Shown here in pieces: positions 5,173 through 50,358 of a stretch of 53,096 bases of DNA. The stretch lies in assembly GCA_026393985.1 (NCBI GenBank), contig JAPKZB010000057.1:1-53096 (forward strand), given 5' to 3'. Every line of letters starts with the position of its first letter. Positions within the stretch are counted from its first letter, which is position 1. Source of the DNA: Acidobacteriota bacterium. GTDB taxonomy: Bacteria > Acidobacteriota > Terriglobia > Bryobacterales > Bryobacteraceae. The notes beneath the pieces are model-generated. The model was not told the origin of the DNA, searched no databases, and saw only the letters and a program-made list of their open reading frames with translations. The translations under genes and the position numbers were made by a program.

Positions 5173-6512
5173 ACCGCCCCCTTCGCCTTGCCTCCGCCCG
5201 CCTCCCACCGCGGCGGCGCCATCTCGGTGTTCCTCTTTTCGAGCACCTTTCGTAACCGTACCACCCGCTCCGGTTCCGCCCCCGCCAAGTCCCGCTGCTC
5301 GCCCGGGTCCTGCTCCAGGTCATGCAGGGCAAACTCCGCCTGCCCCTGCCGCACCAGCTTCCATCTTCCCTGCCGCACCGCGATGTTCTTCCCGTAGCGC
5401 CAGAACAACGTCCGCTCGCCCAACTTGCCCCCCAGGTCCACCCCGTCAAACTCCGCCGCCCCGTACGGCACCCCCGCCGCCCGCAGCACCGTCGGCACGA
5501 TGTCGGTGGCGATCACCGGCGCGGCCTCGGTCCGCCCCGCCGCCCATCGCCCCTTCCACTGCAGCAGAAACGCCACCCGGATCTCGCCCTCGTACAACTG
5601 CCCCTTGCCGCCCCGCAGCGGCCGGTTGCTCGAAGTCAGCTCTGCCGTCGGCCCCCCGTTATCGCTCAGAAAGATCACCAGCGTGTTCTCCTCAAGGCCG
5701 TGCCGGCGCAGCGCGCCCAGTACCCGGCCCACCCCGTCATCAAGCGCGCTCAACATCCCCGCGAACACTCGCCGGTGCTCATCGGCAATCCCGGCAAACC
5801 GCTCCTGCGATTGCGCCGTCGCCTGCATCGGGCTATGCACGGCGTTCCAGGGCAGATAGAGAAAGAACGGGCGCTGCCGGTGGCGGTTAATAAAGCTCTC
5901 GGCCTCCCGCGCCAGCGCCGCCGTCAGATACTCCCGTTCCTCTACCGGTTCGGTCCCCCGCAGCAGCGGATTGTCCGCATCGTAGGGCGGCTCGTTTTTC
6001 CGCAAGTGCGAAACTACCCCGTCGCAGGGCGGAGGCACGAAAAAGTGTCCTTCGTGGAGAAAGCCGAAAAACTCGTCAAACCCCCGGCGCAGCGGATGGT
6101 ACCGCGGCGTCCCGCCCAGATGCCACTTGCCGATCACCCCGGTGGCATACCCCGCCTTTTGCAGCCGCTGGCCGAGCGTCACCTCGCTCTCGGGCAGGCC
6201 GATCGCCGGGTCCAGATTGGCGCGGCCCACGGCGTTGAACTCATGGCCGAACCGCGTCTGGTAGCGCCCCGTCAGCAGCCCCGCCCGGGACGGCGTGCAG
6301 TAGGGCGCCGTCACGTAGCCGTTCGAATACCGCACGCCGTGGTGGGCGATTGAATCGATGTGCGGGGTCGGAATCTCCGGGTTGCCCTGACAGCCGAGTT
6401 CGCCGTAGCCCAAATCATCGGCCAGCAGCAGGACCACGTTGGGCCGCCGCTGTGGTTGCTGCGCCGCCGCCGTCGCCGCCAGCCCTGCCAAAAAACTTCG
6501 CCGGTTGAGCAT
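5169..6512 (-). CDS. Exported sulfatase (arylsulfatase family)
   Basis: A 447-aa sulfatase of the alkaline phosphatase superfamily. A Tat-type leader (NRRSFLAGLAA) is followed by PNVVLLLADDLGYGELG, whose Asp pair at 32-33 binds the active-site calcium. CTPSRAGLLTGR supplies the formylglycine precursor Cys72 in the canonical C-x-P-S-R context. This is the aerobic, Cys-type class needing a formylglycine-generating enzyme, which is not in the window. SDNGGPT is the second metal-site motif. Likely role: extracytoplasmic release of sulfate from a sulfated glycan or sulfate ester; the substrate cannot be read from sequence. The gene is head to head with the uracil-DNA glycosylase, with 23 bp between the start codons. 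Confidence 0.92.
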   Translation of the reverse strand: MLNRRSFLAGLAATAAAQQPQRRPNVVLLLADDLGYGELGCQGNPEIPTPHIDSIAHHGVRYSNGYVTAPYCTPSRAGLLTGRYQTRFGHEFNAVGRANLDPAIGLPESEVTLGQRLQKAGYATGVIGKWHLGGTPRYHPLRRGFDEFFGFLHEGHFFVPPPCDGVVSHLRKNEPPYDADNPLLRGTEPVEEREYLTAALAREAESFINRHRQRPFFLYLPWNAVHSPMQATAQSQERFAGIADEHRRVFAGMLSALDDGVGRVLGALRRHGLEENTLVIFLSDNGGPTAELTSSNRPLRGGKGQLYEGEIRVAFLLQWKGRWAAGRTEAAPVIATDIVPTVLRAAGVPYGAAEFDGVDLGGKLGERTLFWRYGKNIAVRQGRWKLVRQGQAEFALHDLEQDPGEQRDLAGAEPERVVRLRKVLEKRNTEMAPPRWEAGGGKAKGAV

Positions 6513-6523
6513 CGCCGCCAGCT

Positions 6524-6530
6524 TACCCTA
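6524..6530. promoter_or_regulatory. Putative shared -10 element, sulfatase / uracil-DNA glycosylase
   Basis: On the plus strand TACCCT (6524-6529) ends 6 nt before the glycosylase ATG. On the minus strand TAGGGT (6530-6525) ends 12 nt before the sulfatase ATG. The two hexamers overlap almost completely. Each fits TAnnnT but is otherwise weak, no -35 is apparent, and there is no Shine-Dalgarno before the glycosylase. Confidence 0.4.
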
Positions 6531-6535
6531 TACAG

Positions 6536-7225
6536 ATGGCCCGTGCTACTCTCGCCGCGCTTGCCCGCGAAATCACCACCTGCGAACTCTGCCCCCGGCT
6601 CCGCGAACACTGCCGGCACATCGCCGCCGTCAAGCGCCGTGCCTACCAGACCGAGACCTACTGGGGCCGACCCGTCCCCGGCTTCGGCGACCCTGCCGCC
6701 CGCCTGCTGATCCTTGGCCTGGCTCCCGGCGCCCACGGCGCCAACCGCACCGGTCGCGTCTTCACCGGCGACCGCTCCGGCGACTTCCTCTTCCGGGCTC
6801 TCGACGAAACCGGCTTCGCCAACCAGCCCACCTCCACCGATCGCGCCGATGGGCTTGCCCTGCACGACGCCTGGGTCTCCGCCTCGGTCCGCTGCGCCCC
6901 GCCCGATAACAAACCCGACCCGGCCGAAATCCGCACCTGCCAGCCCTTTCTCGAACGCGAACTGGCCCTGCTCAAAAACCTCCGTGGCGTGGTCGTCCTC
7001 GGCCGCCTGGCTTTCGATGTCTACACCCGTATCGCCAACCTCCGCGGGCTCGACTTCGGCCACGGCCTCCTGCACACCGCATCCTCCCCCTGGCTGCTCT
7101 GCTCCTACCATCCCAGCCAGCAGAACACCTCCACCGGCCGCCTCACCCGCGAAATGCTCCACGATGTCTTCGCCGCGGCCCGCCGCCAGTTGGACTCCGC
7201 GGCTCACCCCCCCGCCGGTCGGTAG
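6536..7225 (+). CDS. Uracil-DNA glycosylase, family 5 (UdgB-like)
   Basis: A 229-aa glycosylase that excises uracil, and in this family other deaminated bases, from DNA. Cys16 and Cys19 (TTCELCPRLREHC) with later cysteines in SVRCAPPDNKPDPAEIRTC fit the 4Fe-4S cluster of family 4/5 enzymes. The active-site loop GLAPGAHGANRTGRVFTGD is the family 5 form, lacking the usual catalytic Asp or Glu at the water-activating position. The other loop, SYHPSQQNT, is the H-P-S motif. Near-leaderless expression is suggested by TACCCT 6 nt before the ATG. Its 3' end overlaps the convergent P-type ATPase gene by 22 bp. Confidence 0.9.
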   Translation: MARATLAALAREITTCELCPRLREHCRHIAAVKRRAYQTETYWGRPVPGFGDPAARLLILGLAPGAHGANRTGRVFTGDRSGDFLFRALDETGFANQPTSTDRADGLALHDAWVSASVRCAPPDNKPDPAEIRTCQPFLERELALLKNLRGVVVLGRLAFDVYTRIANLRGLDFGHGLLHTASSPWLLCSYHPSQQNTSTGRLTREMLHDVFAAARRQLDSAAHPPAGR

Positions 7226-9669
7226 TGCGCGTGGAAGTACCGCTTGGTCACCTCCACGGCCATCGTGTACGCCAACGCAATGCCGACCACCAGCCCCAAC
7301 AGCGAGAGCGGCAGCGGCACAAAGCCCAGATACCCGCTCCCCGGCAAATAGGAGATCACCAGCGTCAACCCCGTCACCGCGATCGTGGAACACAGCAGCA
7401 GTCGCCCCGGCCGACTCCGGTAGAACGGCAGCCGCGTCCGCACCACCAGCGCCACGGCCAGCTCCGTCAGCAGCGACTCGACAAACCACGCCGTCCGGAA
7501 CTCCACCGCCGAGGCCTGATAGACCCACAGCAGCACCCCGAAGGTCAGATAGTCGAACAGCGAACTCACCAGGCCGAACAGGATCATGAAGTTCCGGATG
7601 TAGGCCACGTCCCAGCGGTGGGGCCGCTCGATCCATTCGCGGTCCACTTCATCGCTGGCAATCGCCATTCCCGGCACATCCGACAGGAAATTGTTGAGCA
7701 GAATCTGATTGGCCAACAGCGGCAGAAACGGCAGAAACAGGGATGCCCCCGCCATGCTGAACATGTTGCCGAAGTTCGCGCTCGTGGTTGTGAAGATGTA
7801 CTTGATCGTGTTGGCAAACGTGCGCCGCCCCTCGGCAATGCCTTCCCGCAGCACGTTCAGATCCTGCTCGAGCAGCACCAGATCCGCCGACTCCTTGGCC
7901 ACATCCACCGCCGCGTCCACCGAGATTCCCACGTCGGCCGCATGTAGCGCCGGGGCGTCGTTGATCCCGTCCCCCATGTAACCGACCACGTGCCCCATCT
8001 TCTGCAGCGCCTGAATAATCCGCTCTTTCTGGTTCGGATCCACCTCGACAAACAGCGTCGTCCGCTCGGCCCGGTGCCAGAGCGCCTCATCGGAAAGCGC
8101 CTGAATCTCGGCGCCAGTCAGCATCGCCTCCGCCGGCAGTCCCACCGCCTGCGCCAGGTGCGCCGCCACCAGATGGTTGTCTCCCGTGATGACCTTCACC
8201 GCCACTCCCAAGCCGGCTAACTCGCTCAGCACCGTCTTGACGCCAGGCTTTGGCGGATCAAGAAACAGCAGGTAGCCGGCGAAGTCCAGCTCGCTCTCCC
8301 GTGCGGTCTCCCCCGCCGCCAGCGTCCGCGTCGCCACCCCCAGCACGCGGATACCCTGCGCGCTCCAGGCGGAAAAGCGCGCCGCCGCATCGTCGGGCAC
8401 CGTTCGGCAGATCGACAGCACGCCTTCGAGCGCGCCCTTGGTCACCATCCGCCGCTCGCCGTCCCGTTCCACGACCACGCTCAGCCGCTTCCGTTGGAAG
8501 TCATAGGGAATCTCGTCCACCTTCCGGTAGCCCTCTGCCGGCGCGGCCGCCGCGACAATCGCCTCATCGAGCGGATTCGGCAACCCGGTCTGCAGCCCCG
8601 CGTTCAGCGCCGCCCAGCGCAACACCTCCGGAGACGCCTCGCCGTGGGAGTCCAATGCTCCGTCGAGCCGCACCACGCCTACCGTCAATGTGCCCGTCTT
8701 ATCCGTGCACAGCACGTCCATGCTGCCGAAGTTCTCAATCGCGTTCAGCCGCCGGACGATGACGCCGCGTTCGGCCATCCGCTGGGCGCCGCGGGATAGC
8801 GTCAGGCTCAGTATCGCCGGCAGCAGTTCCGGCGCCAGGCCCACGGCCAGGGCGATGGCAAACAGCAGCGCATCGACGGGCGGCTTGGCGCCAAACACGT
8901 TGATGGCGAATACCACCAGCACCAGCATCACCTTCGTCAGCAGTTGCCCGAACTGCCGGATCCCGAGTTCAAAGCCGGTTTCGGGCGGCCGCAGCGACAG
9001 CCGGCCGGCGATCTGTCCGTACGCCGTCTTCGTGCCCGTCGCCACCACCACGGCCCGTCCGGTCCCGCTGCGGATGCTCGTGCCCAGGAAGACCACGTTG
9101 GTGCGCTCGGCCAGCCCGCAGGCGGCGCCCACGGCCCCGGCGCGCTTCTCCGCCGGATAGGTCTCGCCAGTCAGCACGGCCTGGTTCACAAAGCAGTCCC
9201 GCGCCTCCATGATCACCGCGTCGGCGGCAATCAAACTTCCCGCCGCGAGCACCAGCACATCGCCCGGCACCACTTCGGCCGCCGGCACGGACACCGTGCG
9301 GCCGTCACGCACGACGCTGGCCTTGACCTGCACCCGCTGCCGCAGCTTCTCCATCGCCCGGTTGGCCGAGAACTCCTGCAAAAAGCTCAGCACGCCGCTG
9401 CCCACGATAATGGCGAGCACGATGCCGGCATCGAGCCACTCCCGCACAAAAATCGACACGCCCGCGGCCCCGGCCAGAATCAGCAGCAGCGGGCTCCGGA
9501 ACTGCCTTACAAAAAGCCGCAGTATCGAGAACCGCGACTCCGCCCGCAGCGTGTTTGGCCCATAGCGCCCGAGCCGCGCCGTGGCCTCCGCGGTGGTTAA
9601 TCCCGCTGCGCCACTCCCCAACTCCTCCAGGATCTGGCTGCCGCTCCGGCTCCAATAATTGTCGAGCAT
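7204..9669 (-). CDS. mgtA: Magnesium-type P-type ATPase (MgtA-like, P3B)
   Basis: About 821 residues. The order is N-terminal cation-ATPase domain (EATARLGRYGPNTL), membrane helices, actuator loop with LTGETYPAEK, phosphorylation motif DKTGTLT (Asp near residue 323), the ATP-binding domain, the hinge GDGINDAPAL, and a C-terminal helix bundle. NPLDEAI and the membrane segment NFGNMFSMAGASL followed by LLNNFLSDVP are characteristic of MgtA/MgtB, so import of Mg2+ at the cytoplasmic membrane is the best guess. The start at 9669 was preferred to 9708 because the conserved N-terminus begins there. No long Mg-sensing leader is seen in the 57 bp to the upstream gene. Confidence 0.87.
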   Translation of the reverse strand: MLDNYWSRSGSQILEELGSGAAGLTTAEATARLGRYGPNTLRAESRFSILRLFVRQFRSPLLLILAGAAGVSIFVREWLDAGIVLAIIVGSGVLSFLQEFSANRAMEKLRQRVQVKASVVRDGRTVSVPAAEVVPGDVLVLAAGSLIAADAVIMEARDCFVNQAVLTGETYPAEKRAGAVGAACGLAERTNVVFLGTSIRSGTGRAVVVATGTKTAYGQIAGRLSLRPPETGFELGIRQFGQLLTKVMLVLVVFAINVFGAKPPVDALLFAIALAVGLAPELLPAILSLTLSRGAQRMAERGVIVRRLNAIENFGSMDVLCTDKTGTLTVGVVRLDGALDSHGEASPEVLRWAALNAGLQTGLPNPLDEAIVAAAAPAEGYRKVDEIPYDFQRKRLSVVVERDGERRMVTKGALEGVLSICRTVPDDAAARFSAWSAQGIRVLGVATRTLAAGETARESELDFAGYLLFLDPPKPGVKTVLSELAGLGVAVKVITGDNHLVAAHLAQAVGLPAEAMLTGAEIQALSDEALWHRAERTTLFVEVDPNQKERIIQALQKMGHVVGYMGDGINDAPALHAADVGISVDAAVDVAKESADLVLLEQDLNVLREGIAEGRRTFANTIKYIFTTTSANFGNMFSMAGASLFLPFLPLLANQILLNNFLSDVPGMAIASDEVDREWIERPHRWDVAYIRNFMILFGLVSSLFDYLTFGVLLWVYQASAVEFRTAWFVESLLTELAVALVVRTRLPFYRSRPGRLLLCSTIAVTGLTLVISYLPGSGYLGFVPLPLSLLGLVVGIALAYTMAVEVTKRYFHAHYRPAGG

Positions 9670-9726
9670 GTCACTTCGCAGTCTCCTCCTGCGAGGCCCC
9701 AAACACAACGGGGGGTGTCCGCCCCC

Positions 9727-11481: not shown

Positions 11482-11493
11482 GACCTCCGTACT

Positions 11494-11898: not shown

Positions 11899-11901
11899 GG
11901 C

Positions 11902-12378: not shown

Positions 12379-12431
12379 TCTCTTGCCCCCAGCGCGAATC
12401 AACAGAGCATACCAATTCCGCCGCCCCGAGA

Positions 12432-12437
12432 TATAGT
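12432..12437 (+). promoter_or_regulatory. Putative -10 (TATAGT) for the first exported Gfo/Idh gene
   Basis: TATAGT is 17 nt before ATG 12455. GAAGGA (12443-12448) between them is a plausible Shine-Dalgarno, 6 nt from the start. This is a conventional leadered arrangement. No good -35 was found. Confidence 0.4.
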
Positions 12438-12454
12438 CTTTCGAAGGATTCCTC

Positions 12455-13621: not shown

Positions 13622-13655
13622 GCGGCCGCGCCTCGTTTTGGCGTATATGTATTGC

Positions 13656-14510: not shown

Positions 14511-14518
14511 CGGCGATC

Positions 14519-15766
14519 TTAACCCGTGTGCCGGTATCGACGCCAATACCACAGCGCCGCAAACGCAACCATCCCTCCCAGCAGCCCACGCAGCGCCAGC
14601 GCGCTATCCCTCGTCGTCCACTCCCAGCGGAACTGCGAGAGCACCTGCCACCGGTCCGCCGTCCAATGCCACGCCGTATGCGCGACAAAGGCCGAGATCA
14701 ACACGGTGCCCAGGCGCGGCGTTACCGCCCGCCGGAACAGCAGTACCAGCAGGGGCACCATCCCCGCCAGCGCGGCCAACTGCCCGGCTTCAACGCCAAC
14801 GTTGAACGCCAGCAGCGCGGCCATCAGATGGCCCCCCGCAAACTGTAGCGACTCGCGCAGCGCGAACGAAAAGCCAAAGCCATGCACCAGCCCGAAGCCG
14901 AACGCCATTGCCGGGCCGTGCGTCGCGCCAGCTCCGGTGATGTTGGCCAGGGCGAGAAAAAGAATCGAGACGGCGATCAGCAGCTCCACCGCCGGGGCAA
15001 ACCACAAACCCGAAGGCGTCATCTCGAGCGCCGCCGCGGCCAGCGTCAGCGAATGCGCGAGGGTGAAGGCGGTGACCACTTTGACGAGCGGCATCGCCTT
15101 GCGGATCGGCAGCAGCAGGCACAGCAGAAACAGCAGATGGTCGGCACCCGCCAGTATGTGCGCGAAGCCCATTTTGACGAAGGAAACCGAGGCTTCCATC
15201 CACGTGGGTTCAAGCGGGAAACGCACCACATCGCCGGGCACGACGAACGTCCGGCCACCAAAGCGGACCGTGGTGGTTACCTCCGTGGCCAGGCCGGCGT
15301 AGGCGGGCTCGATCGCCAAGGGTCCGGCCGCCGACGGAAGATCGAACTCGAGTGCCACGTCGAAAAACAGTTGGCCCGCGATAAGGCGGTCTCCCGTCAG
15401 CGACTCGGCCCGCCGTCGCCACGCCTCTTCAAACGAGACGAAGGAGGCATCGGCCGGCAGCGCCAGCCGCGCGCCGGCCAGGCGCGGCGGCCCCAGCGAT
15501 TGGCCGGCGGCGTAGAGGCGCAGCGGATCGGCGGCCCAGAGTTTGGCCAGTCCGTCGAGGCGCGGCGCGAGAGCGGCCGCATCGAGGAACCCTTCGGCCG
15601 TGCGCGGAAAATCGACGTCGCGCACCGCTTCAAGCGGCAGACGCACCACGGCGCGCATCGTTTGGCCGTTGGTGGCCAGATGTACCTGCACGTGGGCGAT
15701 AACGGGAGCCTCGTGTGCCGCCAGCGGCAGGCAGGCGAGAAGCAGAAGGGTCCAAGCGCGAATCAA
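14519..15766 (-). CDS. HupE/UreJ-like membrane protein
   Basis: About 415 aa. A signal peptide (LLLLACLPLAAHEAP) leads to an extracytoplasmic domain of some 200 residues, then six or more membrane helices with FAHILAGADHLLFLLCLLLP, the HupE/UreJ-2 signature, and FGFGLVHGFGFSFALRE. HupE/UreJ proteins are implicated in nickel or other metal supply, but no hydrogenase or urease is nearby. I chose TTG 15766 because the leader begins there and TATCAT ends 7 nt upstream; the ATG at 15811 would place the start inside the divergent gene. It converges on the FAH gene, 8 bp apart. Confidence 0.8.
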   Translation of the reverse strand: MIRAWTLLLLACLPLAAHEAPVIAHVQVHLATNGQTMRAVVRLPLEAVRDVDFPRTAEGFLDAAALAPRLDGLAKLWAADPLRLYAAGQSLGPPRLAGARLALPADASFVSFEEAWRRRAESLTGDRLIAGQLFFDVALEFDLPSAAGPLAIEPAYAGLATEVTTTVRFGGRTFVVPGDVVRFPLEPTWMEASVSFVKMGFAHILAGADHLLFLLCLLLPIRKAMPLVKVVTAFTLAHSLTLAAAALEMTPSGLWFAPAVELLIAVSILFLALANITGAGATHGPAMAFGFGLVHGFGFSFALRESLQFAGGHLMAALLAFNVGVEAGQLAALAGMVPLLVLLFRRAVTPRLGTVLISAFVAHTAWHWTADRWQVLSQFRWEWTTRDSALALRGLLGGMVAFAALWYWRRYRHTG

Positions 15767-15772
15767 TTCAGG

Positions 15773-15779
15773 TATGATA
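15773..15779. promoter_or_regulatory. Overlapping bidirectional -10 elements (TATGATA)
   Basis: Plus-strand TATGAT (15773-15778) ends 7 nt before ATG 15786. Minus-strand TATCAT (15779-15774) ends 7 nt before TTG 15766. Both fit the -10 consensus well, and the spacing puts both predicted transcript starts on or next to the start codon. Neither gene has a Shine-Dalgarno. No TTGACA-like -35 is seen. Confidence 0.6.
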
Positions 15780-15785
15780 GCGCCG

Positions 15786-17027
15786 ATGCAAAGGTCACAG
15801 TGGAAGATCATCGGTTATGCGACCGCGTTGGGCCTGGTGGCCGCGGCTGCTTATGTTGTCGAAAAAAAGGCGGCCGTCGAAGCCGCCGGACCCACGGCTC
15901 CTCGCCTCGAGGTCGATCCCTTCTGGCCCAAGCCCCTGCCGAACCATTGGGTGATGGGCGCCGTCATCGGCCTCGGCGTTGACAGCAAAGACAACGTCTG
16001 GATTGTCCACCGCCAGGGCTCGCTTGAAGATAAGGAAAAGTACGCCGCCTGGAACCCCAAGGCCGCTGAGTGCTGCGCCCCGGCGCCGCCCGTGCTCGCC
16101 TTCAGCCCGGACGGCACCCTGATCGCTCACTGGGGCGGCAACGGCAACGGCTTCGATTGGCCCTCCTCGAACCACGGCATCGACGTCGACCACAAAGGCA
16201 ACGTCTGGATCGGCGGCAACGGCCGCGGCTCCGTGCCCGCCGCCCTGGCCCACGACGAAAGCAAGATGTCCGCCGCCGGCGCCGTGCACGACAGCTTCCT
16301 GCTCAAGTTCACCCAGGCCGGCCAGTTCCTGATGCAGATCGGCAAGCCCTTTGCGAGCAAGGGCAGCAACGATGTGACCAACCTGCGGCTCCCGGCCAAG
16401 TCCCTCGTCGATCCCCAAACCAATGAGCTTTACGTGGCCGACGGCTACGGAAACCGCCGCGTCATCGTCTTCGACGCCGACACCGGAAAGTACAAACGCC
16501 ACTGGGGCGCCTACGGCAGCAAGCCTGACGATACCGACCTCGGCCCGTACAATCCCAACGCCCCGGCACCCAAGCAGTTCCGGACCCCCGTCCACGGCCT
16601 GATTCTCTCAAACGACCGCCTGCTCTATGTTTGCGACCGCACCAACAACCGCATCCAGGTCTTCCGCACCGACGGCACGTTTGTGAAGGAGGGCTGGGTC
16701 GCCCGGCCGACGCTCGGCGACGGGGCGGCCTTCGACGTCGCTCTGTCGCGCGATCCGCAGCAGAAGTACCTCTATATCGCTGATGGCTCGAACATGAAGG
16801 TGCACGTCCTCGACCGGCAGAGCCTGGAAGTCCTCACCACCTTCGGCGACGGTGGCCGCCAGCCCGGCCAGTTCTACGCGGTGCACTCCATCGCGACCGA
16901 CTCGAAGGGAAACGTCTACACCACGGAAACCTACCGCGGCCAGCGCCTGCAGAAATTCTCGTATCGCGGCGAAGGGCCGATTGCGAAAAAGGAGCAGGGC
17001 GTGGTGTGGCCCAGGGCGGGACGCTAA
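15786..17027 (+). CDS. Exported NHL-repeat six-bladed propeller protein
   Basis: 413 aa. An N-terminal hydrophobic anchor or signal (IIGYATALGLVAAAAYVV) is followed by repeated NHL-type blades, for example IGLGVDSKDNVWIVHR, HGIDVDHKGNVWIGG, LYVADGYGNRRVIVFD, LYVCDRTNNRIQVF and HSIATDSKGNVYTTETY. The pattern resembles the lyase domain of peptidylglycine alpha-amidating enzymes, but no catalytic role can be claimed. The stop overlaps the next gene's ATG (TAATG), so the propeller and the following Gfo/Idh protein are coupled and may work on the same extracytoplasmic substrate. Confidence 0.85.
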   Translation: MQRSQWKIIGYATALGLVAAAAYVVEKKAAVEAAGPTAPRLEVDPFWPKPLPNHWVMGAVIGLGVDSKDNVWIVHRQGSLEDKEKYAAWNPKAAECCAPAPPVLAFSPDGTLIAHWGGNGNGFDWPSSNHGIDVDHKGNVWIGGNGRGSVPAALAHDESKMSAAGAVHDSFLLKFTQAGQFLMQIGKPFASKGSNDVTNLRLPAKSLVDPQTNELYVADGYGNRRVIVFDADTGKYKRHWGAYGSKPDDTDLGPYNPNAPAPKQFRTPVHGLILSNDRLLYVCDRTNNRIQVFRTDGTFVKEGWVARPTLGDGAAFDVALSRDPQQKYLYIADGSNMKVHVLDRQSLEVLTTFGDGGRQPGQFYAVHSIATDSKGNVYTTETYRGQRLQKFSYRGEGPIAKKEQGVVWPRAGR

Positions 17028-31672: not shown

Positions 31673-33003
31673 ACCGCCGTCAACTGCTCGGCCTCGCCGC
31701 CGCCGCCCTCCCCGCTCGTCATCTCGCCGCTCAGGAGCGCGCCACCCGCGCAGTCCGCGGTCTGCCTTCCCCCAAAATCAAGGACGTCAGCTTCATCGCC
31801 ACCGCCCCTGGCGGCCTCCGCCTCGGCGTCGTCAAAATCACCACCGACCAGGACGGCCTCTACGGCTACGGCTGCGCCACCTACACCCAGCGCGCCGACC
31901 TCGTCGTCGAAGCCGTCAACCGCTACCTGAAGCCCTTCCTCATCGGCAAGCCCGCCGACCGCATCGACGACACCTGGCAGGCCTGCTACAACTCCTCCTA
32001 TTGGCGTAATGGCCCCGTGCTCAACAACGCCATCTCCGGCGTCGATCAGGCCCTCTGGGACATTAAAGGCCGCCAAGCCGGCATGCCCGTCTATCAGCTC
32101 CTCGGCGGCAAACTCCGCGAAGCCGCCGACTGCTACGGCCACGCCAGTGGCGCCGAAATCCCCGAAGTCATCGACAATGTCCGCAAGTACATGGCCCAGG
32201 GCTTCCGCCACGTCCGCGTACAGGTCGGCATTCCCGGCATGGCCGCATACGGCTCCGGCGGCGCGGTCAATACCAAGGTGCAGGCCCTCCACACCGGCCC
32301 CGTCTACGAACCCGCCGCCTATATCCGCCGCACCCTCAAACTCTTTGAAGCCTGCCGTAAAGAGCTGCCCGAAGAGGTCGAACTCTGCCACGACGTCCAC
32401 GAACGGATCAGCCCCACCCAGGCCCTGCAAATGGCCCGCGATGTTGAAAAGTTCAAGCTCTTCTTCTTTGAAGATCCGCTGAGCCCGGAAGATCTCGCCT
32501 GGTTCCGCATCATGCGCCAGCAGACCTCGACGCCCATCGCCATGGGCGAGCTCTTCAACAGTCCCCACGAATGGAGTCCGCTCGTCGCCGAACGGCTCAT
32601 CGACTACATCCGCGTCCACGTCTCCCAGGCCGGCGGCCTCACCCCCTGCCGCAAAATCGCCATCCTCGGCGAACACTTCGGCGTCAAAACCGCCTGGCAC
32701 GGTCCCGGCGACGTCAGCCCCATCGGCCACGCCGCCAACGTCGCGCTTGACCTCACCAGCTACAACTTTGGCATCCAGGAGTATAGCCCCTTCAGCGAGC
32801 GGCTCCGCGAAATCTTCATCGGCTGCCCGGAGATGAAGGACGGCTACCTCTACGCCAACGAAAAGCCCGGCTGGGGCATCGAAGTCAACGAGGAACTCGC
32901 CAAAAAGTTCCCCTTCGGCGCCAACGAAAGCGGCGAACGCGGCCGCTACAACGGCGGCTGGGGCGAAGTCCGGCGCCGCGACGGCACCATCATCAAGCAG
33001 TAA
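31669..33003 (+). CDS. Enolase-superfamily dehydratase, ManD/RspA-like, with Tat-type leader
   Basis: 444 aa. The leader (NRRQLLGLAAAALPARHLAA) suggests Tat export. The body is a mandelate-racemase-type N-domain plus a TIM barrel. Metal ligands fall at Asp in LCHDVHERISP (about residue 240), Glu in FFFEDPLSPED (about 266) and Glu in PIAMGELFNSP (about 293). The DVHE His, and the His in AWHGPGDVSP, match the catalytic pair of D-mannonate dehydratases. Closest activity is sugar-acid dehydration, but exported members are poorly characterised. Its ATG overlaps the ccmD stop, so it is translationally coupled to cytochrome maturation, an unexpected pairing. It converges on the aminotransferase with an 11-bp overlap. 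Confidence 0.85.
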   Translation: MNRRQLLGLAAAALPARHLAAQERATRAVRGLPSPKIKDVSFIATAPGGLRLGVVKITTDQDGLYGYGCATYTQRADLVVEAVNRYLKPFLIGKPADRIDDTWQACYNSSYWRNGPVLNNAISGVDQALWDIKGRQAGMPVYQLLGGKLREAADCYGHASGAEIPEVIDNVRKYMAQGFRHVRVQVGIPGMAAYGSGGAVNTKVQALHTGPVYEPAAYIRRTLKLFEACRKELPEEVELCHDVHERISPTQALQMARDVEKFKLFFFEDPLSPEDLAWFRIMRQQTSTPIAMGELFNSPHEWSPLVAERLIDYIRVHVSQAGGLTPCRKIAILGEHFGVKTAWHGPGDVSPIGHAANVALDLTSYNFGIQEYSPFSERLREIFIGCPEMKDGYLYANEKPGWGIEVNEELAKKFPFGANESGERGRYNGGWGEVRRRDGTIIKQ

Positions 33004-34045
33004 TCCGCCGCATCCCCTCGGCAAACGTACCTGGTTCGGTGAGCAAACTCACTACCAGGTACGGCCCGCCGTCCAGATCAAAAAAGTAGCCCGGCTGCGT
33101 CAACACCCGCCGCTCTTCGAGCAGATACCCCGCCCACTCCTCATCCGTCCGCTCCCCCGGCATCCGGAGTATCGCGCACCACCCGCCCTCTACCCGCAGC
33201 GCCTCCCGCACCCGCGCCAAATTCTCCCGCACCCGCTCCAAGATCGCCCCGTGCACGCTCGCCCGCAGCAACCCCGGCAGCGCCCACTGCACCGGCGTCG
33301 AAACGGATAGATAGGTGTCCGCAATCAACTCCAGCCGCTCCCGCGCCTCCTCCGCCCCGGGCCCGGAGACGTGAATCCACCCGGCCTTCATCTGCGGCAG
33401 CCCCGCCGCTTTCGACAGCCCATCGAGTACGAACGTCAGCACCCGTCCGTTCCCGCCCAGCGTCGGCAACACCCCCTCGACATGCGCATACGAGGCAAAC
33501 ACCTCGTCCGAGATCAGCGGCAACCCGTATTCCGCCAACCGCCCGAGCTCCTCCGCCCGGACATAAGACCCCGTCGGGTTGTTCGGATGTACCACCAGAA
33601 TCGCCTTCGTCCGCGGCGTCAACTCCCGCTCGAGCGCCGCGAAGTCGATAAACCATCCCTCGGCGTACCGCAGCGGATACTGCTTCACCCGCACACCCTC
33701 CAAACCCGCCAGATATTCAAACAACGGATACGAAGGCCGCGGCGCCAGCACCTCATCGCCCGGGTCGCACAGCAGCTTAAACAGCCACGCATAGCTCTCG
33801 CTCGTCGAAGCCGTCAAAAAGTCCGCCCCCACCGCCGCCCGCGCCGCGGCCATCCCGCGCGGGTCCGGGTCGTACACCAGCATCTCCGGCCGCGCAAACG
33901 CCGCCAGAATCTCGCGCTCCGGATAAACGAGGCCCACCCGCGTCGGGTTCGATACCGTCAGGTCCAGATACTGCCCCCGCAGCGCCGCCGCGCGTTCGGA
34001 GAGAGTATTCGAGGGCGTGCCCCACGGCAGCCGGGAAGAGAACAT
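32993..34045 (-). CDS. PLP-dependent aminotransferase, class I/II
   Basis: About 350 aa. ASTSESYAWLFKLLCDPGDEVL is the cofactor-phosphate region, VVHPNNPTGSYV the conserved Asn loop, and LISDEVFASYAH carries the Asp that pairs with the pyridine nitrogen. The Schiff-base lysine is in LDGLSKAAGLPQMKAGW, near residue 212. The substrate cannot be assigned. ATG 34045 was preferred to 34057 because it leaves room for the divergent promoter. It lies head to head with the S51 peptidase, 18 bp between start codons. Confidence 0.88.
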   Translation of the reverse strand: MFSSRLPWGTPSNTLSERAAALRGQYLDLTVSNPTRVGLVYPEREILAAFARPEMLVYDPDPRGMAAARAAVGADFLTASTSESYAWLFKLLCDPGDEVLAPRPSYPLFEYLAGLEGVRVKQYPLRYAEGWFIDFAALERELTPRTKAILVVHPNNPTGSYVRAEELGRLAEYGLPLISDEVFASYAHVEGVLPTLGGNGRVLTFVLDGLSKAAGLPQMKAGWIHVSGPGAEEARERLELIADTYLSVSTPVQWALPGLLRASVHGAILERVRENLARVREALRVEGGWCAILRMPGERTDEEWAGYLLEERRVLTQPGYFFDLDGGPYLVVSLLTEPGTFAEGMRRITA

Positions 34046-34051: not shown

Positions 34052-34058
34052 TATCATC
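34052..34058. promoter_or_regulatory. Putative shared -10 element, aminotransferase / S51 peptidase
   Basis: Plus-strand TATCAT (34052-34057) ends 6 nt before ATG 34064. Minus-strand GATGAT (34058-34053) ends 7 nt before ATG 34045. The hexamers overlap by five bases. No Shine-Dalgarno precedes either ATG. Confidence 0.45.
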
Positions 34059-34063: not shown

Positions 34064-34894
34064 ATGCGCCTACTCGGCCTCCTCCTGTGCGCTAGCCTCC
34101 TCCCCGCCCAACCCGTCACCAACGCCGCCGTCCACAGCCCCGGCTCCGGTCCCGCCCAAGGTCATCTGATCGTCATCGGCGGCGGCGCCCTCGGCGACGA
34201 TATCCTCCACCGCTTTGCCGACCTCGCCGGGGGACTCGCCGCCCCCATCGTCGTGATCCCCACCGCCGGCGAACAACTCCGGCCCCTTACTACCCACCCA
34301 CTCCACCGCCACGGCTTCTCGAACCTCGTCCAACTCCACACCAAAGACCGCGCCGAAGCCGACTCCGACGCCTTCCTCGCCCCCCTCCGCGCCGCCCGCG
34401 GCGTCTTCATCGACGGCGGCCGCCAGTGGCGCCTCGTCGACAGCTACCTCGGCACCAAAACCCAGCGCGAACTCGAAAACCTCCTCGCCCGCGGCGGCGT
34501 CATTGCCGGCACCAGCGCCGGCGCCACGATCCAGGGCAGCTACCTCGTCCGCGGCGCCCGCGAAGGCAACACCATCATGATGGCCAAAGGCTACGAAGAG
34601 GGCTTCGGCTTCCTCCGCAACGTCGCGATTGACCAGCACCTCATCGCCCGCCATCGCGAAAACGACCTGCTCCCCGTCATAGCCCTCAAGCCCGAACTCC
34701 TCGGCATCGGCATCGACGAAGGCACGGCGATCGTCGTCTCCGGCAACCGCTTCGAAGTCATCGGCGCAAGCAAAGTCGCCATCTACGACACCAACTACGG
34801 CGTCGGCCCCGACGGGAAATCCTACTACTGGCTCCTCCCTGGCGACTGCTTCACCCTCACGGTCAGAACCAAACAATCCTGCCCGTCGAAGTAA
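34064..34894 (+). CDS. Exported S51 / cyanophycinase-like peptidase
   Basis: 276 aa. A short signal peptide (MRLLGLLLCASLLPAQPV) is followed by HLIVIGGGALGDDILHRF, the start of the class I glutamine-amidotransferase-like fold. The nucleophile serine is in VIAGTSAGATIQG (about residue 150), the G-x-S-A-G elbow of peptidase family S51. FIDGGRQWRLVDSY and AIDQHLIARHREND supply the expected Gln/Arg and His regions, and GIGIDEGTAIVV closes the fold. Family members hydrolyse cyanophycin or Asp-containing dipeptides. Export points to scavenging of an external peptide-like polymer. The substrate is uncertain. Confidence 0.88.
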   Translation: MRLLGLLLCASLLPAQPVTNAAVHSPGSGPAQGHLIVIGGGALGDDILHRFADLAGGLAAPIVVIPTAGEQLRPLTTHPLHRHGFSNLVQLHTKDRAEADSDAFLAPLRAARGVFIDGGRQWRLVDSYLGTKTQRELENLLARGGVIAGTSAGATIQGSYLVRGAREGNTIMMAKGYEEGFGFLRNVAIDQHLIARHRENDLLPVIALKPELLGIGIDEGTAIVVSGNRFEVIGASKVAIYDTNYGVGPDGKSYYWLLPGDCFTLTVRTKQSCPSK

Positions 34895-41401: not shown

Positions 41402-41408
41402 GCGCACG

Positions 41409-41414: not shown

Positions 41415-41451
41415 TCGCGCCCCGCGCCGCCACTTCAAATCTCCTGCCGCC

Positions 41452-45146: not shown

Positions 45147-46378
45147 GCGACTCCATGGTAAACGTCCAGCGCCGCCCGCGTCATCGCCGCCATCGAGTAG
45201 TGCTCCCGCACCCCCGCCTCGCCCCGCGCTCCCAACTCCCGCCGCAGCGCCGCATCGTCCCGCAGCTGCGCCAGCGCCGCGGCCAGCGCCCCCGGGTCCC
45301 GCGGCGGCACCAGCAGTCCGCCGCCTGTCTTCCGGATCATCTCCGGAAACGCCCCGTGCGCCGGCTGCACCACCGGCGTCCCGCACGCCCAGCTCTCCAG
45401 CACAAACAACCCCTTCGGCTCCACGTACTCCGTCGGCACCGACAACACATCCATCCCCCGCAGAAACTCCGCCTTCCCCTCCCGGTCCGGCGAGCCGTGG
45501 TAAATCATCCGCTTCTCCCACTTCGCCAGATACTCCCGGTGCTCCGGCAGGTTGTACCCCGCCGCGTGCAGCTCCACGCCCTCGAGCCTCTCGACGGCCT
45601 CAATCAAATGATGCAGCCCCTTCTCCGGCGCAATCCGGGCAAAAAAGCCCACGCGAAACCCCGCGTGCCGCTTCTCCGCCGGCCCTAAATCCGTAAAGTT
45701 AATCCCCAGCGGCACCACCCGCACCTTCGCCGCCGGAATGCCCAGATACCCTGTCATGTAACTGGCATAGTACTCGCTCGTCGCCACAAACGCGTCCACA
45801 TGGCGGATCTGTTGCCGGATTAACTCCATACTCCGGCTCCGCCACGGCTGGGCCAGCCCGTCCAGAAACAGGTCCTCGCCCTGCAGCGTGCACACCACCG
45901 GCGAACCCGTCACCCGCTTCATCGGCTCGGCCAGCGCAATCAACAGCGTAAACGGCAGGCTGATCACATCCGGCCGGCTCTCGGTCGCAAGCCACTCCGT
46001 CAGCTTGTCGAACTCTTTCCGGATCGGCCCCCCCTCCCCCTCAAGCATCGACACCGTCATCTCGCCCAGAAACTTCGGGTCCACCCCCACCGACCGCTGC
46101 GACGCCATCCGCAGCGCCGCTTCCGAATCCCACAACTTATCCAAAAACCGCGGCGTATGCCGGAACAGCGCCGATTTCTGCTGCAGATACACGCTGATCC
46201 CGCCAAAGAAAACCCGGTTCAGGCTGTGGTTTACCTCATCGGTCAGCGTGGGCGTGTAAACCGGCGTCAGCACCACATCATGCCCCGCCGCCCGCAACGC
46301 CCCCGCCAGCGCGTTGTCCCGCATGCAGGAGCCGCAGTACATATTGGCGGCTCCCGCGGTAATGTAAACGATCTTCAC
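45143..46378 (-). CDS. Family 4 glycosyltransferase (operon 2)
   Basis: 411 aa. The N-terminal VYITAGAANMYCGSCMRDNA is a recognisable start of a GT4 subgroup that carries a CGSC motif. The C-domain has VGFFARIAPEKGLHHLIEA and the E-x7-E motif TEYVEPKGLFVLESWACG. GTG 46378 abuts the upstream TAG. Downstream it overlaps the exporter ATPase. Lying between a possible acyl-reducing pair and a lipid-type ABC exporter, it may glycosylate the lipid or aldehyde-derived product before export. Confidence 0.9.
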   Translation of the reverse strand: MKIVYITAGAANMYCGSCMRDNALAGALRAAGHDVVLTPVYTPTLTDEVNHSLNRVFFGGISVYLQQKSALFRHTPRFLDKLWDSEAALRMASQRSVGVDPKFLGEMTVSMLEGEGGPIRKEFDKLTEWLATESRPDVISLPFTLLIALAEPMKRVTGSPVVCTLQGEDLFLDGLAQPWRSRSMELIRQQIRHVDAFVATSEYYASYMTGYLGIPAAKVRVVPLGINFTDLGPAEKRHAGFRVGFFARIAPEKGLHHLIEAVERLEGVELHAAGYNLPEHREYLAKWEKRMIYHGSPDREGKAEFLRGMDVLSVPTEYVEPKGLFVLESWACGTPVVQPAHGAFPEMIRKTGGGLLVPPRDPGALAAALAQLRDDAALRRELGARGEAGVREHYSMAAMTRAALDVYHGVA

Positions 46379-47808
46379 TAGCCCACCAGTTCAGGCACCG
46401 CTTGAAACGCCCGGCGCGAGTACAGATGGTCGAACAGATTCCCCTCGTGCGGCTGATCCCACGAAATCTTCATCGTCGAGATCGGCCCCAGATTCAGCCG
46501 CCCGATGTGCGGATTCGCAAGCAGCCGCTGGTGCAGCCGCTTGTCGTTGGTCAACGCCGTGCAAACCAGCGTCGGTCCCAGACACTCCGGCAGATCATGC
46601 GGTTCCACCTGCACCACGCTCACATGCGGATAGCCGAACTCGCGGTTGGCCAGCGAGTGCTCCTTCGACGGCACGTGGATCACCGACGGCAGCAGATACG
46701 TGCACCCGTCCCATTCGGCCACCCGCCCGCTCCCGCGCACCTTCGCGCACAGGTCCTCGGCCCCGCCGTCGAGTTCGGAATCCACCATCGCGCTGATCCG
46801 CTTGGCCACGTCCGGATTCGCCAGCGGCGCCACGGCCGCGTTCGGGTCGTCCTCGGCCGTTGGCTTAATTCTCGCCAGCCGCTCGGCCAGCGCCTCGGCC
46901 AGCGCCCGCCCGTCGCCCGTCGTCCAGATGCTCGAACAGTTCACGCACGACCGGCCCGAGTTGTTCGACACCGAATCCACCATCAGATCGAGATACTTCT
47001 CCCAACCCGCCGCCCCGTCGTCGGCCAGGATGATCTTCGAATAGCCCGGCCCGTGAATCTCAATCCGCGGATCCCCGCTCCACGCCTTGGCCGCCGCCAC
47101 GTCGCCGAACAGCATCCCGCGCCCCGTACCCCGCAGAATCTCGCCGCCGCCCGCGTGGCTCGTCGGATAGTAACCGAACACCTCGGCCGGCACCCCGGCC
47201 TTCACGTAGGCTTGAATAATCCGGTACGGCGTCCACAGCTCCGAACTCCCCGGCTTCAGAATCAGCGGCGTCTTCAACGCAATCGCCGGCGCCCACAACG
47301 AATGTACCCCCGGCGAGTTCGACGGCAGAATCACCCCCATCGAATCCCCCCGCGGGAAGAAGCTCAGCGCCCGGCCGTCAATATCGCCCACGCCGCTGTC
47401 CAGCATGTCCAGATTCGGCAGCCGCGTCAGACCCATCAACACGGTCTCCATCGACGCGAGCACCCCCGCAATCTTGGCCATGTTCCGCCGCACCATCACC
47501 CACGGTAAACCCGTCGTCGCCGATACGGCCTCCACAAACTCCTGCGGCGACTGCGCGCTGTCGCCGAGCGGCAGCGTGTCGTTCAAAAAGTAGCCCGATG
47601 CCTTGCCCGCCATCGCAATCAACTCGCGCGTCGTAAAGCCCTGCAGAATCGCCGCCGCCTCGTGCTGCCGCGCCAGATCCCGCCGGATCAGCCCCGCGTT
47701 GGCCTGGCTCGCTTCGACAAACGGCTGCCGCGTCCGGTAGTGCACCGCCGTCGCCGTGTCCACGCTCCGGTACGGCTTGCCGTACCGCAATATCGGTAAG
47801 TGCAGCAT
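46378..47808 (-). CDS. Aldehyde dehydrogenase/acyl reductase-like enzyme
   Basis: 476 aa with an aldehyde-dehydrogenase fold. NAD-domain motifs are SMGVILPSNSPGVHSLWAPA and LKTPLILKPGSSELWTPYRI. The likely catalytic cysteine is in NNSGRSCVNCSS, near residues 287 and 290. The C-terminal segment NREFGYPHVSVVQ replaces the usual EIFGP. It differs from metabolic ALDHs and recalls LuxC-type acyl reductases. It starts 3 nt after the stop of an adenylate-forming enzyme, so the two are probably made in equal amounts and act together, as LuxE and LuxC do, reducing a carboxylate to an aldehyde. The activity is inferred. Confidence 0.78.
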   Translation of the reverse strand: MLHLPILRYGKPYRSVDTATAVHYRTRQPFVEASQANAGLIRRDLARQHEAAAILQGFTTRELIAMAGKASGYFLNDTLPLGDSAQSPQEFVEAVSATTGLPWVMVRRNMAKIAGVLASMETVLMGLTRLPNLDMLDSGVGDIDGRALSFFPRGDSMGVILPSNSPGVHSLWAPAIALKTPLILKPGSSELWTPYRIIQAYVKAGVPAEVFGYYPTSHAGGGEILRGTGRGMLFGDVAAAKAWSGDPRIEIHGPGYSKIILADDGAAGWEKYLDLMVDSVSNNSGRSCVNCSSIWTTGDGRALAEALAERLARIKPTAEDDPNAAVAPLANPDVAKRISAMVDSELDGGAEDLCAKVRGSGRVAEWDGCTYLLPSVIHVPSKEHSLANREFGYPHVSVVQVEPHDLPECLGPTLVCTALTNDKRLHQRLLANPHIGRLNLGPISTMKISWDQPHEGNLFDHLYSRRAFQAVPELVG

Positions 47809-47811
47809 GGC

Positions 47812-48903
47812 TTAGTACACCCCCTCCACCACCGACTTCTGGAACCGCGAAAACGGCCGCACGTTCCGCACCCCGTCCCACGGATACTGGTCGCACGGCG
47901 CCTCCCGCTCGCACTCATCGCGCTCCAAAAACCTCGGAATAAAAGTTTCTTTGGTCAACGTCGTCAGCCGCACCCGGCCCGTCTCCCCGTAGCCCACAAT
48001 CTTGGTGGCGTCATCGAAGTCCACCACCTCCAGCACCGCCCGCGGCACCGGCGGATAGTAAATAATCGCCCAGTTGTCCTCCGGTTCCGGCGCCTTATGC
48101 GTCGCCAGACCCATCAGCGTGTTGCCGTAAGTCGGCGCGAAGTAGATGTTCGGCCCGAGCAACTCCTCCACCGCGAACCGGTGGAACTGCGGCGTCATCT
48201 CCGTCCCCCCGCAGAAGACACCCTTGATCCCGGCCTTCTCGAGGTTGATCTTCTCGCACAACGCCTCGAGCAGCTTCGGCGTCGTGAACATGCACTTCAC
48301 CTCGTGCGCCCGCAGAATCGTCAGCGCCTGGTCAATGCAGTGCTGCTTGTACAGTTCGGCCTCCTGGATCTGCCCGCGCTTGATCAGCTTGATCACCCAC
48401 CGCGGATCCAGGTCCACCGAAAACGCAATCCCACCCCGGTGCTGCGCCAGATGCTCCACGGCCAGCCGTAGCCGCCGCGGACCGCTCGGCCCCAGCATCA
48501 ACCAATCCGATCCCTTCGGAAAGTGCTCGTCCGGCAGCGTCTCGGAAAAGTTCTCGTAGTCAATGCGGAAGTCGTCCATCTGCACCCGCGACTTCGGCAC
48601 CCCGGTCGATCCCCCGGTCTCAAACACGTACACCGGACGGTGCGCCAATCCCTTCGGCACCCACCGCCGCACGGGCCCCCCGCGCAGCTCATCGTCCTGA
48701 AAATTGCCAAACTTGTCGAGGTCGGCGTACGACGTCACCTCTTTCCGCGGGTCCCAGCCCGCCTCCTGGGCCCAGTTCAGCCAGAACGGGCAGCCCGTCT
48801 CCGGGTTGAAATGCCATTCCACCATCTCGCGCACATGAGCGTCCAGACGCTCCTTGCTCGCTTGTACTTTTACAAAAAGATCGGTCGGGGTCGCGGTACT
48901 CAT
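47812..48903 (-). CDS. Adenylate-forming enzyme, LuxE / phenylacetate-CoA-ligase-like
   Basis: About 363 aa from ATG 48903; an in-frame ATG at 48909 is also possible. The P-loop is YVFETGGSTGVPKSRVQ, and the A5-type motif is NIYFAPTYGNTLMGLA. It is short: the C-terminal domain that closes over the acyl group in ordinary acyl-CoA ligases is largely absent. That size fits the LuxE acyl-protein synthetase type. The gene lies directly upstream of the aldehyde dehydrogenase-like partner. Expected step: ATP-dependent activation of a fatty or aromatic acid. The chemical identity is not readable from sequence. Confidence 0.75.
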   Translation of the reverse strand: MSTATPTDLFVKVQASKERLDAHVREMVEWHFNPETGCPFWLNWAQEAGWDPRKEVTSYADLDKFGNFQDDELRGGPVRRWVPKGLAHRPVYVFETGGSTGVPKSRVQMDDFRIDYENFSETLPDEHFPKGSDWLMLGPSGPRRLRLAVEHLAQHRGGIAFSVDLDPRWVIKLIKRGQIQEAELYKQHCIDQALTILRAHEVKCMFTTPKLLEALCEKINLEKAGIKGVFCGGTEMTPQFHRFAVEELLGPNIYFAPTYGNTLMGLATHKAPEPEDNWAIIYYPPVPRAVLEVVDFDDATKIVGYGETGRVRLTTLTKETFIPRFLERDECEREAPCDQYPWDGVRNVRPFSRFQKSVVEGVY

Positions 48904-48911
48904 TGCCATAT

Positions 48912-48921
48912 ATCTTATTCT
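48912..48921. promoter_or_regulatory. Putative shared -10 region, AMP-ligase operon / PQQ-repeat protein
   Basis: Plus-strand TATTCT (48916-48921) ends 6 nt before ATG 48928. Minus-strand TAAGAT (48917-48912) ends 8 nt before ATG 48903. The hexamers overlap by two bases in an A/T-rich patch of otherwise very GC-rich DNA. No Shine-Dalgarno precedes either gene. Confidence 0.45.
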
Positions 48922-48927
48922 GATGTC

Positions 48928-50358
48928 ATGGCCCTGCCAATGTCGCGCATTTTTAAATCGGTTCTCCTCCTCCTTGCCGCCCTCGCCGCCGCCGCCGCTC
49001 TCATCTTCGGTGTCTTCGGCGGACGCCTCGATTTCGACGGCTCCGGCCGCCCCGCCCAGGTCCACTTCGACGCCCCCGAAGACCACGACAAAAAGCTCGA
49101 AGTCAGCCGCGCCCAGGCTCCCCCCGAACCCGCCCCCGCCCCCGTCCTTCTCCCCGTCGCCGCGTCCACCCCCACCCCCGAACCCGCCCCCACCCCCACC
49201 CCCGCCGTCCCCTACTGGACCGACTTCCGCGGCCCCCGCCGCGACGGCCACTACACCCAAACCAACATCCTCACCGCCTGGCCCAATGGCAAGCTCCAAC
49301 CCCTCTGGAAACAACCCATCGGCGGTGGCTGGGCCAGCTTCGTCATCGCCGGCGGCCTCGCCTTCACCATCGAACAGCGCAAAACCCAGGAAGTCATCGC
49401 CGCCTACGACGCCGCCACCGGCCGCGAACGCTGGACCCACCGCTACGACGCCGACTTCCAGGAGTCCATGGGCGGCCCCGGCCCCCGCGCCACCCCCACC
49501 TGGCACGACGGCAAACTCTACAGCCTCGGCGCCGAAGGCCACCTCATCGTCCTCGACGCCCCCACCGGCAAACTCCTCTGGCAGAAAAACATCCTCGACG
49601 ACAACAACGCCGAAAACCTCACCTGGGCCATGTCCGCCTCCCCCCTCATCGTCGACGACCTCGTCATCGTCCAGCCCGGCGGCCCCCAAAACAAAAGCAT
49701 CGTCGCCTATCACAAACTCACCGGCGCCAAAGTCTGGGGCAGCCTCAGCGAAAAGGCCGCCTACGCCTCCCCCGTCCTCGCCACCCTCAACGGCCAGCGC
49801 CAGATCCTCACCATGACCGCCACCCGCGCCGTCGGCCTCCACCCCGCCGATGGCAAGCTCCTCTGGGAGTACCCCTGGAAAACCGACTACGACGTCAACA
49901 GCTCCTCGCCCATCGTCGCCGGCCCCAACCGCGTCGTCCTCGCCTCCGGCTACGGCCACGGCGCCGCCCTCGTCGAAATCGCCCCCGGCGGCGCCGTCAA
50001 AACCATCTGGCAAAACAACAAACTCAAAACGAAGTTCTCCACCGCCGTCCTCCACGAAGGCTACCTCTACGGCCTCGACGACGCCATCCTCGCCTGCGTC
50101 GACGCCGCCACCGGCGAACAGAAGTGGAAAGGCGGTCGCTACGGCTACGGCCAACTCCTCCTCGCCCGCGGCCATCTCGTCATCACCACCGAACAGGGCG
50201 ACCTCGCCCTCGTCAAAGCCTCCCCCGCCGCCCACGAAGAACTCGCCCGCTTCCCGGCCCTCGACGGCAAAACCTGGAACGTCCCCGCCATCGCCGACGG
50301 TCGCCTCTTCGTCCGCAACACCCGCGAAATGGCTGCCTTCCAACTCGGCGCCCCGTAA
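48928..50358 (+). CDS. Membrane-anchored PQQ-repeat propeller protein
   Basis: 476 aa. One N-terminal anchor (SVLLLLAALAAAAALIFGVF) is followed by a Pro/Ala-rich linker (about residues 60-95) and then a beta-propeller of PQQ-like repeats: VIAAYDAATGRERWTHRY, LIVLDAPTGKLLWQKN, VGLHPADGKLLWEY and ILACVDAATGEQKWKGG. There is no heme site and no full quinoprotein catalytic set, so a scaffold role of the BamB or YncE kind is more likely than dehydrogenase activity. It is divergent from the adenylate-forming enzyme gene. Confidence 0.85.
   Translation: MALPMSRIFKSVLLLLAALAAAAALIFGVFGGRLDFDGSGRPAQVHFDAPEDHDKKLEVSRAQAPPEPAPAPVLLPVAASTPTPEPAPTPTPAVPYWTDFRGPRRDGHYTQTNILTAWPNGKLQPLWKQPIGGGWASFVIAGGLAFTIEQRKTQEVIAAYDAATGRERWTHRYDADFQESMGGPGPRATPTWHDGKLYSLGAEGHLIVLDAPTGKLLWQKNILDDNNAENLTWAMSASPLIVDDLVIVQPGGPQNKSIVAYHKLTGAKVWGSLSEKAAYASPVLATLNGQRQILTMTATRAVGLHPADGKLLWEYPWKTDYDVNSSSPIVAGPNRVVLASGYGHGAALVEIAPGGAVKTIWQNNKLKTKFSTAVLHEGYLYGLDDAILACVDAATGEQKWKGGRYGYGQLLLARGHLVITTEQGDLALVKASPAAHEELARFPALDGKTWNVPAIADGRLFVRNTREMAAFQLGAP

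Follow-up and report, generated by a model that had tools for sequence, protein, structure and literature searches.

How are two genes that point away from each other transcribed when their start codons lie only 18 to 24 bp apart? The question is raised by a contig of 53,096 nucleotides from a Bryobacteraceae genome of the phylum Acidobacteriota (JAPKZB010000057.1, assembly GCA_026393985.1), which we analysed over its whole length and call the window. It holds four compact divergent pairs, encoding a sulfatase and a uracil-DNA glycosylase superfamily protein (UDG; pair 1), a HupE/UreJ-like and an NHL-repeat protein (pair 2), an aminotransferase and an S51 peptidase (pair 3), and an AMP-binding enzyme and a PQQ-repeat protein (pair 4). 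A first-pass annotation had given start-codon gaps of 23, 19, 18 and 24 bp, and we recovered these gaps at 6512/6536, 15766/15786, 34045/34064 and 48903/48928. It had also proposed that overlapping −10 elements in each gap serve two genes with no leader at all. We found that the four cases belong to a wider recurrent class with two geometries. The best explanation, which we consider very probable, is that the gaps are pseudo-symmetric minimal bidirectional promoters that would fire near-leaderless mRNAs in both directions; if so, the intergenic DNA is essentially the promoter. The proposal of shared elements is the best-supported reading, with predicted leaders of 0-2 nt rather than strictly none. 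It is supported by the enrichment of TANNNT motifs, the clustering of start-site separations, the conservation of the gaps and the retention of TATNATA in seven congeners at pair 2. For the four window pairs this evidence is computed from sequence, and all start sites and leaders given below are predictions.

Two geometries of overlapping −10 elements

Each of the four gaps contains one −10 hexamer per strand, and the two hexamers overlap:

6520..6525, minus strand: pair 1 −10, TAAGCT, first T at −13 (alternative TAGGGT at 6525-6530)
6524..6529, plus strand: pair 1 −10, TACCCT, first T at −12
15773..15779, both strands: pair 2 fused −10, TATGATA (plus TATGAT 15773-15778; minus TATCAT 15779-15774)
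34052..34058, both strands: pair 3 fused −10, TATCATC (plus TATCAT 34052-34057, at −12; minus GATGAT 34058-34053, at −13)
48912..48921, both strands: pair 4 fused −10, ATCTTATTCT (plus TATTCT 48916-48921, at −12; minus TAAGAT 48917-48912, at −14)

The elements of pairs 2, 3 and 4 lie where they had been annotated, including the TATGATA that reads TATGAT on one strand and TATCAT on the other. Only the position in pair 1 differs: the stretch 6524-6530, TACCCTA, represents the alternative minus-strand −10, and the main overlap is at 6520-6529, AGCTTACCCT. Pairs 2 and 3 share the form TANNNTA, in which A−11 of each strand pairs with T−7 of the opposite strand; on the minus strand of pair 3, G replaces the outer T. 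The separation of the predicted start sites in this type is 18 bp. Pairs 1 and 4 share the form ANNNTANNNT, in which the strands have the central TA alone in common and the predicted start sites are 23 bp apart. In all four, the −10s of both strands overlap in compatible register, as expected of a bidirectional promoter. Strict TANNNT whose first T lies between −12 and −14 precedes seven of the eight genes (the exception is GATGAT on the minus strand of pair 3), the plus gene of pair 4 being counted only with start 48928. The probability of a Shine-Dalgarno start, from a model fitted to this same genome, is at most 0.23 for all eight genes, in keeping with the absence of Shine-Dalgarno sites in leaderless genes.

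A recurrent class in the genome

The genome to which the window belongs as contig 48 (G000; 5.93 Mb in 96 contigs, 97.88% completeness) was covered in part: we sampled 1.92 Mb (39 contigs, 32% of the genome, window included). Genes were called with our own script, in a first pass without upstream motifs ("motif-blind starts"); a second, motif-informed set of starts is circular for start-site separations. With motif-blind starts, the first T of TANNNT falls at −12, −13 and −14 in 95, 67 and 52 of 1543 upstream regions, against about 15 per position elsewhere. The 241 divergent pairs include 33 whose gaps measure 17-25 bp, three of these in the window, compared with 9 at 8-16 bp and 16 at 26-34 bp, and no 17-25 bp peak appeared among codirectional or convergent pairs of the sample. 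At these 33 gaps, a TANNNT whose first T falls between −11 and −15 occupies 31 of 66 sides, where shuffled gaps predict 5.7; strict TANNNT is found on both sides in 11 pairs, against 0.8 after shuffling. Codirectional gaps of 17-25 bp have the motif in place on 6 of 62 sides (Fisher p 4e-6 against the divergent sides). Using motif-informed starts, 31 of the 45 pairs with gaps of 15-30 bp bear −10s on both strands, compared with 2.9 in shuffled gaps. The shuffled gaps and codirectional controls rule out a chance origin of the gap motifs.

The predicted start sites of these pairs fall at two preferred separations. With motif-blind starts, gaps of 5-70 bp occur at 116 divergent pairs, and 34 of these score for a −10 on both strands; the separation is 23 bp in 11 of the 34 (10 outside the window) and 18 bp in five (three outside), and any other value occurs in at most two pairs. 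Strict TANNNT, scored without a matrix, gave 8/21 at 23 bp and 4/21 at 18 bp, and the circular motif-informed starts gave 14/48 and 9/48. Thus, 23 bp is the commoner separation in G000. In E. coli start-site maps, 18 bp is reported as the commonest, with 10 and 23 bp also common (PMC12825309), and a bidirectional promoter has been defined by opposed start sites 7-25 bp apart (PMC10268837). Extrapolation from 21-35 copies in 32% of the genome would give about 65-110 copies of the proposed promoter genome-wide.

Genes of this class are enriched for G at −14. The short-gap pairs show no excess of −35 matches (mean best match 2.44 of 6 vs 2.33, standard deviation 0.14), and the excess in other classes is weak (2.56 vs 2.28, standard deviation 0.09; 2.38 vs 2.22, standard deviation 0.08). 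The lack of an excess in short-gap genes suggests that polymerase needs little beyond the gap.

Two further features of opposed genes were seen in G000. At a few divergent pairs, no more than 6-11 bp separate the start codons (C7:175484-175494, C40:42064-42071, C6:11604-11616), in some cases with leaderless-type −10s inside the opposing gene; these are possibly mis-called starts or a 10-bp promoter type. At the other end of genes, 97 of 252 convergent pairs in the sample overlap at their 3' ends by our calls (7204-7225 and 32993-33003 in the window), indicating that compaction touches both kinds of opposed gene ends.

Conservation and breadth of the compact gaps

Pfam confirmed the families of all eight genes (Sulfatase, UDG, HupE_UreJ_2, NHL, Aminotran_1_2, Peptidase_S51, AMP-binding and PQQ_2):

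5169..6512, minus strand: pair 1 sulfatase (PF00884, E 1e-61)
6536..7225, plus strand: pair 1 UDG (PF03167)
14519..15766, minus strand: pair 2 HupE/UreJ-like protein, TTG start (PF13795)
15786..17027, plus strand: pair 2 NHL-repeat protein (PF01436)
32993..34045, minus strand: pair 3 class I/II aminotransferase (PF00155)
34064..34894, plus strand: pair 3 S51 peptidase (PF03575)
47812..48903, minus strand: pair 4 AMP-binding enzyme (PF00501, E 1e-8)
48928..50358, plus strand: pair 4 PQQ-repeat (BamB-like) protein, start 48928 or 48940 (PF13360)

The named records closest to the AMP-binding gene (95-99% identical) are metagenome-assembled genomes labelled Bryobacteraceae, Acidobacteriaceae, Acidobacteriales, Acidobacteria and Candidatus Sulfopaludibacter, which points to an uncultured Bryobacteraceae source for the window. 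No Pfam family matched the open reading frame antisense to the PQQ gene. The 76-bp gap of a fifth divergent pair, 12378/12455, is as annotated; our caller favoured 12456 as its minus start, and its ribosome-binding sites were judged by eye only. A sixth pair, absent from the five listed earlier, was called at about 24600/25158 (gap 525-585 bp).

The first-pass annotation suggested comparing the four gaps with orthologous pairs, and this comparison showed that they are conserved beyond fourfold sites. Relatives with unchanged spacing provided 22 comparisons, in which gap identity is 436/466 (93.6%) vs 4227/6419 (65.9%) at fourfold sites. Even where fourfold identity is 17-33% (G006, G012 and G013), gaps 3 and 4 are still 78-92% identical.

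For pair 1 (54 matches in all, 30 aligned loci), five loci have the 23-bp gap, which is identical or almost so in four relatives; three have a 39-bp gap with apparently two separate −10s, and in 22 no sulfatase was found. In some congeners (L112, L115) the divergent partner of the UDG gene is instead a DegT/DnrJ/EryC1 aminotransferase (Pfam E 2e-88 in L115), and in one genome with this arrangement (G003:C16:237967-237997) the gap again matches the 23-bp fused pattern. At pair 3, 9 of 25 aligned genomes have the 18-bp gap; in the other 16, the partner is adjacent with overlapping or abutting projected starts (three), lies 613-1353 bp off (six) or has no match (seven). An in-frame ATG upstream of the aminotransferase, at 34057, is absent in seven of eight relatives with the same gap, and we therefore rejected the idea that this gap is hidden coding sequence. 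Pair 4 (33 matches in all) keeps its 24-bp spacing in 9 of 30 aligned genomes, whereas eight have a projected gap of 90-134 bp and 13 have no adjacent partner; five congener loci show the 24-bp gap with a 23-bp separation only under motif-informed starts.

At pair 2, the 19-bp gap occurs in three of 19 aligned genomes, and TATNATA is kept in 11. Seven of these 11 are congeners with a more distant downstream start codon for the NHL gene, preceded by a purine-rich leader that resembles GGAGG in four of them. Retention of TATNATA while the NHL start shifts indicates that the promoter core outlasts start-codon changes. An ATG within the TATGATA of the window (15774-15776) shares the NHL reading frame, 12 nt 5' of the proposed start, and would fall outside the mRNA if that message is leaderless.

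Using the same method, we found gaps of 17-25 bp in 1 of 36 pairs from other acidobacterial loci (23 of L244-L270), 2 of 40 from G040 and 0 of 40 from Planctomycetota-rich loci. The 33/241 of G000 differs from these three pooled (3/116; Fisher p 6e-4). A congener pool (100 kb of G009 and ten named loci, leaving out L229, L230, L236, L238 and L240 as near-identical or short) gave 5/33, four of them in G009. Leaderlessness alone was rejected as the cause: 300 kb of a Deinococcus deserti plasmid (motif-blind calls) has a leaderless peak, with TANNNT at −12 in 11/227 and about 1 elsewhere, yet 0/31 of its divergent gaps are 17-25 bp long.

Whole-genome pattern counts were compared with a reversed-pattern control, leaving two class-level genomes, G057 and G058, out of the sums. 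For the 23-bp pattern, forward and control matches numbered 17:1 in G000, 296:81 across 19 genomes of the genus, 128:66 across 16 that belong to the family but to other genera and 104:54 across 20 of the order; for the 18-bp pattern they numbered 293:110 in the genus, 99:82 in other genera of the family and 85:84 in the order. In the 1.92-Mb sample, 9 of 15 matches lie between divergent genes (23-bp, 5/7; 18-bp, 4/8; site 48901 is in both). In G430, with 26 forward and 3 control matches, none of the 15 matches whose loci were inspected lies between divergent genes by our calls, showing that the control is not neutral to coding sequence. Because of this flaw, we did not accept a phylum-wide spread from counts in 396 genomes, and the counts, which point to the genus, are only suggestive.

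Competing explanations and known bidirectional promoters

In the mechanism we propose, RNA polymerase with a housekeeping-type sigma factor would recognise one pseudo-symmetric −10 region in either orientation. In the TANNNTA type, A−11 and T−7 of the two strands would pair mutually, setting start sites 18 bp apart; in the ANNNTANNNT type, the two T−12/A−11 steps would coincide in the central TA, setting them 23 bp apart. Each mRNA would start at its start codon or no more than about 2 nt from it and be translated leaderless. There would be room for one polymerase at a time, making the two orientations mutually exclusive. Five E. coli bidirectional promoters had basal activities too low for competition, which appeared once one direction was strongly activated (PMC12825309).

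Several observations weigh against this interpretation. The gene starts rest on our own script, and five of the eight window genes (HupE, NHL, aminotransferase, AMP and PQQ) have an upstream in-frame start candidate no more than 66 nt away. The PQQ start is uncertain, since motif-blind calls place it 12 nt further downstream at 48940, which widens the gap of pair 4 to 36 bp. With motif-blind starts, 43 pairs have short gaps of 15-30 bp, and in 22 of them a scoring −10 is missing from at least one strand. Base sharing raises the odds of separations of 18, 21 and 23 bp in shuffled gaps as well (0.79, 0.51 and 0.71 pairs). Finally, the three doubly scoring pairs of the congener pool have separations of 20, 21 and 21. 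Compact gaps thus do recur in the genus, but this small sample did not reproduce the 18/23 preference.

We considered whether the start codons are misplaced, such that the genes have ordinary leaders and promoters inside the opposing coding region and the gap motifs are coincidental. The in-frame candidates favor this explanation, as do related pairs in other genomes that do carry leaders. Yet TANNNT is enriched even with motif-blind starts, the gaps are conserved beyond fourfold sites, the alternative aminotransferase ATG is lost in most relatives, and neither the sulfatase nor the UDG gene has an in-frame alternative upstream, up to the stop codon. Moreover, signal-peptide-like N-termini begin at the proposed start codons in five of the window genes; the sulfatase N-terminus resembles a twin-arginine signal, and the signal-like stretch of the HupE/UreJ-like protein directly follows its TTG start (all by eye). 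Misplacement is therefore unlikely. Somewhat less likely still is a one-way promoter in each gap, with the second −10 a by-product of motif symmetry and the second gene transcribed from elsewhere. Selection on one strand would automatically make TANNNTA match both ways, and two-sided strict motifs are confined to a third of the 17-25 bp gaps; but single-strand selection does not yield ANNNTANNNT, the commoner type, and the preferred separations put both hexamers at leaderless distance. That the palindromic core is a regulator's operator rather than a promoter is highly improbable: a repressor box does cover overlapping −10s in the csoR-cueA divergon (PMC5057107), but here the middle bases vary among pairs, the paired genes look unrelated, and the same hexamer stands at the same position before 118 codirectional genes.

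Bidirectional promoters are normally recognised only through transcript mapping. Here mRNAs seem to begin at start codons, and gene spacing itself therefore exposes promoter geometry; it points, in an uncultured lineage far from E. coli, to the 18- and 23-bp separations known from that species. The pairs would be natural minimal two-way promoters, with no leaders and apparently no −35, suited to questions of polymerase direction choice and gene coupling, and gene finders are likely to misplace starts in them. A bolder and more doubtful reading makes the doubly leaderless bidirectional promoter a standard building block of genomes within one bacterial genus. Intergenic regions would then be cut to the bases that polymerase needs to bind either way, start-codon spacing alone would reveal promoter geometry in uncultured bacteria, and competition for the site might couple the output or noise of the two genes.

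The components of this arrangement are already in print. They comprise −10s common to both strands, leaderless genes, and two divergent pairs, one with overlapping −10s that is leaderless on a single side and one that is leaderless on both. Leaderless genes carry TANNNT about 12 bp 5' of the start codon (PMC3160421, PMC12340547) and were predicted in three of three Acidobacteria genomes, at an average of 13.3% (PMC3160421), with which the TANNNT peak of G000 agrees; the terms "divergent" and "bidirectional" are absent from the accessible main text of both papers. Titles and opening lines of abstracts, in a search that most subscription papers fell outside, revealed no recurring set of promoters in which one shared −10 serves two leaderless genes, and the doubly leaderless, minimal, recurrent form looks like a new variation on known promoters. 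In the csoR-cueA divergon of Bradyrhizobium, −10s also partly overlap and the csoR start site is the A of its start codon, but only that side is leaderless (the cueA leader is 42 nt) and a repressor box lies over the −10s (PMC5057107). Rv1129c and prpD of M. tuberculosis are likewise adjacent and divergent, both with mapped leaderless mRNAs, in a figure legend that terms closely juxtaposed divergent promoters common; unlike here, that legend reports no shared −10, and the start sites lie within the genes as annotated, at Met 26 and Val 9 (PMC3898074). Sharing of −10s by opposed promoters, which the first-pass annotation noted as known from other bacteria, is described in E. coli and Salmonella, where one shared or overlapping −10 likewise serves both strands at separations of 18 bp (A−11/T−7 paired) and 23 bp (PMC12825309, PMC10268837). 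Those promoters are defined from start-site maps, and one of their two transcripts is often a non-coding RNA, whereas ours are deduced from sequence; and in G000, unlike E. coli and Salmonella, a gene begins at or beside both predicted start sites.

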